Source: Cystobasidium ongulense
Taxonomy: Eukaryota > Basidiomycota > Cystobasidiomycetes > Cystobasidiales > Cystobasidiaceae
Length of the DNA stretch: 64,000 nt
Assembly: GCA_022835595.1 (NCBI GenBank)
Contig: BQUP01000001.1
Coordinates: forward strand, 2,418,001-2,482,000
Direction of reading: 5' to 3'
Position numbers and translations under genes: made by a program. The first letter of the stretch is position 1, and every line of letters starts with the position of its first letter. Shown one piece after another: positions 7,560-59,600 of the stretch. The notes below the pieces were generated by a model. It did no database searches. It was given only the letters and a program-made list of their open reading frames with translations, and was not told the DNA's origin.

Positions 7560-8662
7560 ATGTCGTCCAAGACTCAGAGCGTACAGACATTCGGCAAGAA
7601 GAAGGTGCGTTTGTTTCCCTCGTGGGCGTGGGTCTGTTGCTGCAGTATCCTGATGTGAATTGCTTGCTGTCCACAGAGTGAGTTTGATCAATTCGATATT
7701 CATGCATGCATGCGTGTGGTGGTGGTGGGGGAAGGAGACAAGCAAGAGCAAGAGATGGACAGCTGCCACACGCACGCAGCATAGGATAGTTAGTTACAGC
7801 CAATATTGATGCAATCTCCTTGCGACCTGCAGCGGCCACCGCCGTCGCTCTCTGCAAGCAGGGCAAAGGTGTCCTACGAGTCAACGGACAGCCAATTGGC
7901 CTGACAGAGCCAAGAATTCTCGCTTTCAAGGTCTACGAGCCAGTGCGTGCTTTGCTTTGAACCCGGTATCTCCAGTGCAAGGCTCATTCGCGTCGTTCTT
8001 GTCTCGCAGGTCCTCGTCCTCAAGCCAGCAGCTTTCGCCAACGTTGATATCAGAGTCAGAGTCTCGGGTGGTGGTCACGCTTCCCAAGTTTACGCTATCC
8101 GTCAAGCAATTGGTAAAGCTATCGTCGCTTACACCGCAAAGTACGAAGATGCCGCTCAAGCTCTAGACTTGAAAAAGGCCCTAGTCGCATACGACAGAAC
8201 CCTGCTCGTCGCTGACCCAAGACGATGCGAGCCAAAGAAGTTCGGTGGTCCAGGTCAGTTATTATACGAGGCAGTGGACGAGGTAGCTCGAGACAGCGTT
8301 AGCTGTCGAGGCTATCGAGTGCTGCCGAGTCGGCCGACCAGCTATACGTGTAGGCCAATTGCTGATGATTTGCCTTTTTTACAATTACAATCAACACCGT
8401 CTACACTACAATGCATACGACGACAACGAACACTCTCTTACGTCCACCGTCATGCTCGCTGTCTCGCAAACGGATCAAATTTTCAAAAATGCCCTCCTTC
8501 GCCGTTTTTTCGATGTATTACGCCTACACTACAACAACACAACAACAACATCTTCTTATCATCAACAGGTGCCCGCGCAAGATATCAAAAATCTTATCGG
8601 TTCGCGAATACCTCTGCCAAAATATGGAAACTCACTAACAATCATTTCCACTTCACAGTTAA
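7560..8662 (+). CDS. RPS16: 40S ribosomal protein S16 (uS9), six exons including a predicted 1-nt exon
   Basis: Small-subunit protein whose C-terminal tail contacts P-site tRNA. Exons: 7560-7604, 7677 (one base), 7833-7942, 8010-8253, 8569-8599 and 8659-8662; sum 435 bases, 144 residues, the normal length. The protein starts [15 protein letters not shown], then [13 protein letters not shown], and contains [19 protein letters not shown] and [13 protein letters not shown], and ends [11 protein letters not shown], all uS9 hallmarks. The invariant C-terminal Arg codon and the stop are split by the last intron: CG before 8600 and TTAA after 8658. Without the single A at 7677 exon 1 and exon 3 are out of frame and the conserved Thr/Ser after KKK is missing. 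The branch site CACTAAC is visible in the last intron. Family call is certain; the one-base exon is inference. Confidence 0.95.
7605..7832 (+). other. Two RPS16 introns flanking a predicted one-nucleotide exon (A at 7677)
   Basis: The first intron would be 7605-7676 (GTGCGT to CCACAG), the second 7678-7832 (GTGAGT to CTGCAG), leaving only the A at 7677 as exon. The A supplies the first base of an ACG Thr codon finished by CG at 7833-7834. Donor and acceptor on either side of the A are both near-consensus. An assembly error in exon 1 is the main alternative. Confidence 0.6.
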
Positions 8663-12039: not shown

Positions 12040-15000
12040 CTACTTTTTTGTACTCTTGCTTTTTGGTGCAGCTTTAGCCGACGCACCTTTAGCAGCGGGA
12101 GCTTTTCCACCAGCAGCGGCCTTGCCCTTTGCAGCTGATGCCGCCTTGGGCTTCTTTGCCTTGACAAGCTTGTCTTTGATTGTGTTCTCATCTTCTCCCT
12201 TCTTGGGCTTCTTTTCTTCCTCCTCCGGATCTGCTTCAGCTTCAACTTCGAATGCTTCTTCGAAATCTGGCTTTTCTGCAGCCGGCATTTTCTTTGATTG
12301 TGCAATGTCTGTAGCTTTATGGAACGGTATTGGATGGTCTGAGCTGTTATATTTGCGAGTGAAAGCAGACTTGGTTTGCGTAGGGATTTTCTTGAGCAGA
12401 GCGTCACCAGTGTTCTCGCCAATGCCCATTTCAACAATGGCATCCCACTCGTCTTTACTGAGATAATACTCGTCCATCTCCTTGATGACCTCGGAAACAC
12501 CGTCTGTCCCTTGATCGATAAGAGGTTGAACGAGTTTGTGCGAAAGTGCAGGAATGTACGATTGTCGTATTTCGCGCTTGTCGCCGGAAACCTTGAGACG
12601 CATGTGTATTTGGATATCCGTCAAGGACCTTTGTAGCCTGCCTTGAGTACTGTTCTTGCCAAACCAGCCTGGGAAGGCTCGAGCGTTCTCGCCGCCGCCA
12701 TTCCAAGAGCCAAAGCTGCCTGTACCGTAGGTGTAATACGCGGGTAGTACAGTGGATAACACTCCATGCACCGGCATGAGACTCCACTGCTGCTGAGAAC
12801 TAAGCGGTGGGATAACAGGAAAGTAAACACGTGTTCATACGTCTGGTCATCAACAGAATGCTGCTTACCCGTGTATCATGCGATCAACCATATCGCCGTC
12901 GGAGATAGAGTCTGCTGCTTGCGAAGTCAACTGCATCTTTGTCCATGCCGCACGTCTTGGGTCAGAATTTGCTCGAGCATACTTGTGTTTGAGATAGTTT
13001 TCTTGCACGAAAAGCGGCAAAAGATCGAACTCTTGGAAATAAACTTCGAGCATCTCGCTAATTTTGGCTTGCGATGTTGACGACCAGGCGTACGGTCCAA
13101 AGAGCTTGTCCATGAGCGCGAATGGCGTAGCCAGTGAGTTAGAGTCGCGTGCGTCGGTGCTGTAAACAGACTTCTATTAGTTATAATCTCAGTACCACTG
13201 AATCGGGTCAAGCACTGACAGCTTCTTCGTCTCATCGAAAGAGAGAGTATTTGAGCTCAATTTCCAGGTAGATAGGATATTGATGATTTGCCTGATATCT
13301 GATTGAGTGCCATTGACCAATTGATCTGCCACTGTTTTATCGATCTTGATTCCCTCCTTGAAAGCAATTGACATAAGACGCGAGCGAATTGAATTTGCAT
13401 CCGGTCTTCTGAAGCGTAGATCTAGTGTTGTGGCTTGGAGGGGTTTCATCTTCTGTAAACTTCGGTCGTTGGCTATACAAATGATAGGTACTTTGGTTTT
13501 CTTGATCAAAGCATTGAGGGCTCCAATACCACCTCTGTCACCGGCTGATGTACCGTCCACCTCGTCCATGATGAGACAGGAGCGATCTGACAAGTCGAGT
13601 GGCCCCTCCTTTGGCTTTCCTGAGAGGAAGCCATCTAACACGGTGTTGTCCAGCGTACTCTTCAACATCTGCTCAAGCAATTTCTTGTTACGCGTGTCGC
13701 TGGCATTCAATTCGATGACCTTGTATCCGCAAGCTTTCGCAACGAGGTGAGCAGTTGTTGTCTTGCCAATGCCAGGCGGGCCTGACAACAAAGCTGCGCG
13801 AAACATGCCCGACCCGTCTTTACCAGGCTTTGCGAAATTGTACTTTGCGTTTTTCGGCCTTGAAAGATGTCATCAGCTGAGTACTAAGACTTGTTAAACG
13901 TTGCACGGGAAGACGACTCACCAGGCCTCCAGCCACTCTGTTAACTTCGTTATGATGCCTGGGTTTCCACATAAGTCTTTTATGGTTCTTGGCGCATACT
14001 TCACCGTCCACAGAGCATTGGCGCTGTCACTGTTGTGAAGTTGCATCAGTATTCATATTTCGCAGAATAGATGTGGCTTCACTGACGGTATGTCTGTAGT
14101 CATAGCTTTCGCGGTCTCCTTGATCTTCTTTTCCTCATCTTTCTGCTTCTTCAGGTACTTGTCATCCAGATCCTCTGATCCTCTCGTGGCGATGAGATTC
14201 AGGAACTCATCTTCCGTCAATGTCTTGATCTTGTTCTTCTTTATCATCTCCAGCTTTTTCGGACCAGCGTCGAGACCGAGTACCACGTACGACGTCTTGC
14301 TGGAAACGGCAGTGGTGACTCGGCTGCCCAACCGGACGAACACTGCATTAGCTTGGGCACTGGCGTGACAAAGAACTGTACGTACCCTCCGTAACGCTTC
14401 GCAAGGGTTATAGCTTCCTCTCGTCCAAGCGATTCCAGCTCTCCCGTAAATACGAAAGTAAGGCCTCCGAGAGCATCGGGAGCGCCTTCAGGTATTTCTT
14501 TGGAACCTTTTAATTAGAACGAAGTACATTCAGCCGATAATCGCATCAAGTCGCCTATAACTTGATTTACCTGGATTCAAGGGAGCACTTGGGCCTTTCG
14601 GTACCCATTTCGGCTTCGGTTTCGCCTCTACAGCTTCATCATCGTCCTCTAACTTTGTCTTGCTAGATGTCGCTTTACCTGATGATGCTTTACTTGCCGG
14701 TTTGCTAGCAGGAGCTTTCTTAGCTGGGGTCGGCTTCTTTGCAGGTGCTGCTTTCTTTTTGGCTGGCTTGACATCCTCTTCTTCGCTGGATTCAGCCTCC
14801 TCTTCTTCAACCTCTTCTTCAACAAGATCATTGTCTTTATAGTCTCCTTCTTCATCATCCTCGGAGTCGACTACTTTGCTGGCCTTCTTGCGAGCAGCTG
14901 TAATGGGTCTAGACGCCCCACCTAGCGACGCGCGCTTCTTAGCAGGCTTCGCATCTTCGCTGTCACTTTCGCTTTCTAACACAACCTTTCTTTTGCCATT

Positions 15001-15379
15001 AGAAGCAGGAGCGCTTGCCTTGGAGGTCGGTTTCGGAGTGCTCTTGTTGCTGGAGGTGCCGTTCGTAGCCTTGCTGGTGGCTACTCGGGGACCATCGTCT
15101 TCGGAAGAGTCGCTTAGCTCAATCGGCTCAGGCCTAAGCAAGAAAGTAAGCAAGCATTGTTAGCTCGCAGAGAGTTGTGTGTCATCGATCTTGACTACGT
15201 ACTTGACGCTGCTCTTGCTCGGTCCCGCTTTCTGCAATGCGCAATCAACGCGATCTCATCAGCGCTCTGCTGTTGATAGTGCCTGATGAAGCTACTTCTG
15301 CCCGGCATAGAGCATTCTTCGCCAGGAACGAGTCTCTCCAGCTACTCACTTTCGCGGGCGACCTCGTCTTGGAGCTCAT
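12040..15379 (-). CDS. RFC1: Replication factor C large subunit
   Basis: Largest subunit of the RFC clamp loader, which opens and loads PCNA at primer-template junctions in the nucleus. The start at 15379 gives MSSKTRSPAK; a short exon KAGPSKSSVK (15232-15202) and the exon PEPIELSDSSEDDG follow. The N-terminal ~200 residues are Lys/Glu/Ser/Ala-rich. A BRCT domain spans about 14480-14230 (LGGLTFVFTGELESLGREE, then AKRYGGRV and TSYVVLGLD). The AAA+ core begins at about 14030 (ALWTVKYAPRTIKDLCGN) with Walker A GPPGIGKTTTAH near 13780, Walker B LIMDEVDG near 13570 and sensor region CIANDRSLQKM near 13470. The RFC1 C-terminal domain follows (12870-13130, then 12040-12777) and ends in a basic Ala/Lys tail. 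No obvious N-terminal PCNA-interacting box was seen. At least seven introns. Confidence 0.95.

Positions 15380-56943: not shown

Positions 56944-59600
<2,657 letters not shown>

Follow-up and report, generated by a model that had tools for sequence, protein, structure and literature searches.

The cytosolic ribosomal protein uS9 (RPS16) is encoded on the forward strand at positions 7560-8662 of the window, i.e. of the whole 64-kb stretch of DNA analysed here, with its ATG at 7560. All parts of the gene described in the following lie on this strand. Coding exon 1 (7560-7604) ends in phase 0 after the residues FGKKK and is followed by a predicted intron 1 of 72 nt (7605-7676), which starts with GTGCGT and ends with CCACAG. 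Recognisable uS9 coding sequence resumes at 7833 as CG-GCC-ACC-GCC, directly behind the terminal CTGCAG of a predicted intron 2 of 155 nt (7678-7832) that starts with GTGAGT. The single base between the two introns, A7677, is the predicted one-nucleotide exon. It would open the Thr codon ACG, the CG of which is supplied by coding exon 3 (7833-7942), reading onward to YEP. Further downstream, intron 3 (67 nt, 7943-8009) and intron 4 (315 nt, 8254-8568) were placed by frame and splice scores, and coding exon 4 (8010-8253) and coding exon 5 (8569-8599) by frame. Intron 5 (59 nt, 8600-8658) combines the weak donor GTTCGC with a CTAAC branch-like site, and the last coding exon (8659-8662) completes the C-terminal Arg codon with one base, followed by the stop codon TAA. 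Elsewhere in the window, two open frames, at 12040-15159 on the reverse strand and at 57816-59600 on the forward strand, resemble by eye what we take to be replication factor C subunit 1 and a poly(A)-binding protein, respectively. Rfam and tRNA scans of the 64-kb window gave no matches.

The product that contains A7677 matches the Pfam family PF00380 with 120.4 bits over the full profile (positions 1-121 of 121). Its best PDB match, a 40S S16 chain, scores 204.8 bits, and in the five PDB alignments printed the site of A7677 is gap-free against eukaryotic uS9. The other PF00380 match of the assembly, located on contig C4, reads IGRKKTASARAW and looks like a mitochondrial or bacterial type. Thus, among the best candidates scored, the gene at 7560-8662 seems to be the only cytosolic-type uS9 gene of the assembly and should therefore have to work. 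The uS9 of mitochondrial or bacterial type (locus L001, 1498-2964, reverse strand) is encoded by a single long open frame (488 codons). Within the domain, a gap-like insert with many Glu, Ser and Thr residues may be either an expansion or a short intron that has been retained. No uS9 relative was found in the viral contigs scanned.

A previous, sequence-only reading of this DNA had claimed that exon 1 stops in phase 0 after KKK, that one extra base is needed before exon 3 and that exactly one base with good splice signals is available. Frames and coordinates turned out as claimed. CCACAG-A-GTGAGT, spanning 7671-7683, contains the only AG-N-GT between 7605 and 7832 (at 7675), and the flanks of this sole candidate base are good by same-genome splice matrices. 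Recomputation also returned the conserved Thr (ACG) that had been said to be regained: the six exons including A7677 total 435 nt, which corresponds to 144 residues plus the stop codon. When A7677 is skipped and 7604 is joined to 7833, the frame is shifted and a stop follows at codon 39 (7902-7904). Retention of intron 1 or of intron 2 in the uS9 mRNA leads to an early stop in either case.

Six conserved genes of this genome (uS11, uS12, uL14, EF1A, actin and calmodulin) supplied 37 reference introns against which splice sites were scored. These introns were located by homology without splice scores, using an aligner that permitted only GT/GC-AG. A second set comprised 15 introns of two actin-related genes, after two of 17 (longer than 300 nt) had been left out as doubtful, whereas self-trained codon and intron models, which gave 26 noisy introns, were discarded. 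All four sites flanking A7677 fall within or above the range of the 37 reference introns. Donor 7605 (11.8 bits) scores above all 37 reference donors and donor 7678 (8.2 bits) above 11 of them. Acceptor 7676 (9.1 bits) exceeds 25 of the 37 reference acceptors, and acceptor 7832, at 6.4 bits below the median, exceeds nine. The branch-like A of intron 1 (7653) belongs to CTGAT and precedes the intron end by 23 nt. The branch motif CTRAY is absent from intron 2, where TTGAT alone is present (A at 7809, again 23 nt before the end). Among the reference introns, 24 of 37 harbor CTRAY within 60 nt of the acceptor and 13 are without it.

Within its limits, the enumeration gave 55 in-frame, stop-free readings with a single intron (GT/GC-AG or AT-AC) and eight other ones with two introns; counting the A7677 model, the two-intron readings between donor 7605 and acceptor 7832 number nine. 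The alternatives alter the conserved protein, and those that were scored have poorer splice sites. Against PF00380, five other readings reached 118.6, 114.4, 111.9, 110.9 and 110.7 bits, compared with 120.4 bits for the A7677 model. The best ordinary rival is a single GT-AG intron of 224 nt (7609-7832) with the donor GTTTGT, which is in frame and needs one intron fewer. Here, exon 1 would be extended by four bases (GTGC), and the protein would read KKK-V-P-ATAVA and comprise 145 residues, with Val-Pro in place of the Thr. However, this adds a residue where the five PDB alignments show no gap, and the match is 7.5 bits worse for the best PDB chain (197.3 vs 204.8 bits) and 8.5 bits worse for Pfam.

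To align protein with genomic sequence, a spliced protein-to-DNA aligner was purpose-written and run with and without intron-side splice scores. Without them, the one-nucleotide exon was chosen at an intron cost of 8 and the 224-nt intron at the other three of the four costs (12, 16 and 20). With same-genome splice scores, ten intron costs between 6 and 30 bits were tried; every one of them returned the one-nucleotide exon and none the 224-nt intron. Protein similarity alone mostly prefers donor 7609 in this aligner, and thus it is the splice sites that decide. Donor 7609 (tgc/GTTTGT) reaches only -0.02 bits, below all 37 reference donors and, after adding the 15 actin-related introns, above one of 52, and the 11.8-bit donor 7605 sits four bases upstream of it. 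On the other hand, this weakness is matched within the gene itself: donor 8600 (GTTCGC) of the last uS9 intron has 1.3 bits, again below all 37, and yet the intron is needed for the protein to end at the conserved Arg. Weak donors may therefore be used in uS9. Of the ten intron costs, only 6 and 10 bits let the splice-scored aligner keep this last intron. On balance, we regard the 224-nt intron as very unlikely.

The best of the other two-intron readings uses a 4-nt exon, GATA (7785-7788), and gives KKK-D-TATAVA in a protein of 145 residues, and a single intron from 7605 to 7789 would lead to a 14-residue insertion. Both are in frame, but acceptors 7784 (-0.0 bits) and 7789 (-6.9 bits) score below all 37 reference acceptors, donor 7789 of the GATA exon (2.9 bits) below all 37 reference donors, and Pfam drops to 114.4 and 110.7 bits, respectively, so that the chance of either being correct is close to nil. 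Further readings were rejected. A GC donor at 7594 loses KKK (Pfam 110.9 bits), and donor 7632 joined to acceptors within exon 3 loses TATAVALCK. Recursive splicing through a zero-length exon (AG/GT) does not apply, since one base separates AG and GT and this base is required by the frame.

The weight of the splice pattern depends on how often it is expected by chance. AG-N-GT is present 438 times on both strands of the 64-kb window, so that about 0.8 are expected in 228 nt and the bare pattern is unsurprising. By contrast, CAGNGTRAGT was found at 460 places on both strands of the 19.77 Mb assembly (304 for the reversed pattern as control), which corresponds to about 0.003 per 228 nt, and the stricter YYNCAGAGTGAGT occurs at 25 places assembly-wide (reversed control, 10). 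In 465,636 strand-bases (233 kb), only one of 1,634 AG-N-GT sites reaches both of the splice scores found at A7677, namely A7677 itself. This sample consists of the window and 20 stretches chosen for containing CAGNGTRAGT, and the comparison is conservative because of that preselection.

By chance, a strong AG-A-GTGAGT carrying the correct base is expected about 0.0005 to 0.003 times in 228 nt, and this bears on an explanation by assembly error. If the assembly had lost a base where exon 1 ends or where exon 3 starts, removal of a single ordinary intron of 228 nt (7605-7832) would suffice. Only one wrong base is required for this, and the intron length is plausible, as the 37 reference introns include some of 214, 283 and 311 nt. 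However, the well-placed AG-A-GTGAGT would then be pure chance, and the missing base would have to sit exactly at the junction, outside a homopolymer run. We consider such an error highly improbable. The six reference genes align end to end with frameshifts forbidden and give no sign of many indels, although this says little.

Introns with GT-CA or TG-AG termini are exceptional. A non-standard intron of this kind, 227 nt long and running from 7605 to 7831 (GT-CA) or from 7606 to 7832 (TG-AG), would produce the same mRNA in both cases. The encoded protein has 144 residues, reads KKK-A-ATAVA and is just 1.8 bits worse in Pfam (118.6 vs 120.4 bits). Nevertheless, AG-A-GTGAGT is left without explanation, and the termini speak against it, although the 37-intron reference set could contain GT/GC-AG only. 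In our view, a GT-CA or TG-AG intron is extremely unlikely.

The one-base-exon interpretation put forward in the sequence-only reading is thus supported, being favoured alike by homology, by the same-genome splice matrices and by the splice-aware aligner. One-nucleotide exons are of very low frequency, which makes for a low prior. Even so, A7677 is very probably a constitutive one-nucleotide exon of cytosolic uS9 (RPS16), with an ordinary spliceosomal GT-AG intron on either side (72 nt upstream, 155 nt downstream), and we infer that both of these introns are actually removed.

Small exons are predicted in other genes of this genome as well (19.77 Mb in 19 contigs, about 49% G+C in 233 kb sampled), the gene structures of which suggest a fungus, probably a basidiomycete. 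Alignment of the six reference genes gave 31 internal exons, seven of which have at most 21 nt and five at most 15 nt. In calmodulin, internal exons of 7, 12 and 7 nt are predicted with good splice sites (locus L035, reverse strand, 1017-1023, 1193-1204 and 1439-1445), and splice-scored alignment predicts an exon of 9 nt in EF1A and one of 13 nt in uS11. The EF1A exon is the least certain, its alignment starting poorly and with a first residue other than Met. A splicing machinery that handles exons of 7 nt renders an exon of 1 nt more credible. A scan of the 233 kb for microexon-like pairs of sites yielded 22 matches over lengths from 1 to 29 nt, a number that comes without a chance control. 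As a separate observation, uS11 is predicted to start with a coding exon that is nothing but the ATG, with an intron directly after it (locus L030, reverse strand, 937-939).

Introns 1 and 2 of uS9 would be U2-type introns, each defined across the intron rather than across the exon. They would have to be excised successively, because 3' and 5' splice sites one base apart could hardly be occupied together. Either order may leave a usable site: if intron 1 is excised first, the next donor would be AAGAAGA/GTGAGT, and if intron 2 is excised first, the acceptor of intron 1 would be CCACAG/ACGG. The spliced uS9 mRNA is predicted to read AAGAAGAAG-A-CGGCCACC over the junction. Since skipping of A7677 or retention of either intron leads to an early stop, inaccurate splicing would be costly, and mis-splicing of uS9 could in principle serve as a means of control. 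Regarding the origin of the intron pair, the ends of introns 1 and 2 are unusually similar. Depending on the end-length setting, 0 to 67 of 1,326 unrelated intron pairs are equally similar; the first end-length was chosen after inspection, and 48 settings were then covered. This is a weak hint that the two introns may have arisen by tandem duplication, or by gain of an intron beside an existing one. With a repeated family in mind, the assembly was also searched for a second copy of intron 1 or intron 2, and none was found.

A second candidate for a one-nucleotide exon, CAG-A-GTGAGT, lies shortly upstream of the uL6 (RPL9) start codon, in what is presumably 5' UTR, at locus L069 (1-801, corresponding to G000:C6:907730-908530), where the base is A403 (C6 908132). 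Among the 24 other places of YYNCAGAGTGAGT, only this one pairs an acceptor score of at least 8 with CTRAY in the last 60 nt (here CTGAC), by a cut-off that was fixed after the scores were seen. The first 47 residues of uL6, read across one intron, match uL6 chains in PDB (best E 1.4e-10); Pfam gave no match for this 47-residue start. In the candidate reading, donor 338 (8.0 bits) opens a 65-nt intron that is followed by A403. Donor 404 (8.2 bits) then opens a second intron of 176 nt, which ends at acceptor 579 (2.9 bits, above 3 of 37 reference acceptors) directly before the ATG at 580. Retention of this second intron would place an upstream frame of 20 codons ahead of uL6. As the candidate lies in untranslated sequence, the frame gives no test, and the region may instead hold one long intron or an ordinary exon that starts at 403 and runs up to the ATG. 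Homology searches had supplied 30 loci with 404 distinct AG-N-GT sites, of which one more satisfied looser cuts. It may be speculated that one-nucleotide exons recur in the first introns of ribosomal protein genes of this lineage (uS9 and uL6) and that obligatory two-step splicing could be the slow step that sets the amount of mRNA. The latter idea derives from the early stop that follows skipping of A7677 in uS9. We regard this proposal as rather doubtful.

If A7677 is indeed an exon, an essential, presumably highly expressed and apparently single-copy ribosomal protein gene relies on the accurate inclusion of one base, and intron definition alone can support an exon that has no room for exon signals. 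A single base is the smallest possible exon, and gene-finding software easily misses such exons. The wrong-looking uS9 that was returned without splice scores at three of four settings is a warning that annotation pipelines mis-annotate such genes. If the uL6 candidate is real as well, one-nucleotide exons may be commoner than the two or three published cases suggest.

On good sequence evidence, A7677 of uS9 would add to the published one-nucleotide exons of APC11, VPS55 and CYP621A. The mention of Arabidopsis in the earlier reading is correct but incomplete, because plant VPS55 (PMC8831610) and Fusarium CYP621A (PMC12940212) have been published too. The one-nucleotide exon of Arabidopsis APC11 was proven by cDNA and by constructs with the base altered or deleted (PMC4674806). 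As in uS9, a single A lies between AG and GT, is required by the frame and has a candidate branch point upstream (PMC4674806); the uS9 exon is predicted from sequence. In land plants, APC11 and VPS55 harbor one-nucleotide microexons that were missed by reference annotations (PMC8831610). A GTRAGT donor adjoins the single base there as it does in uS9. The land-plant exons are conserved over many plants and supported by RNA-seq and RT-PCR (PMC8831610). Placozoan mitochondrial cox1 has a one-base exon too, but through mitochondrial trans-splicing and not by the nuclear spliceosome (PMC5436844).

Among the matches listed from the open-licence PubMed Central literature, there was no one-nucleotide exon in a ribosomal protein gene, and Fusarium CYP621A was the only fungal nuclear case. 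In passages of a Cryptococcus transcriptome study, 'microexon' occurs only as a mapping setting (PMC3990503). The one-nucleotide exon of CYP621A is called the first in a fungal gene by its authors, who inferred it from 20 orthologues and confirmed it with 18 RNA reads (PMC12940212). It resembles uS9 in that both genes are fungal, the base between AG and GT completes a conserved codon and a phase clash gave the clue. The base in CYP621A is a G in the middle of a Gly codon of a rarely expressed P450, whereas the base in uS9 is an A that would be the first of a Thr codon (PMC12940212).
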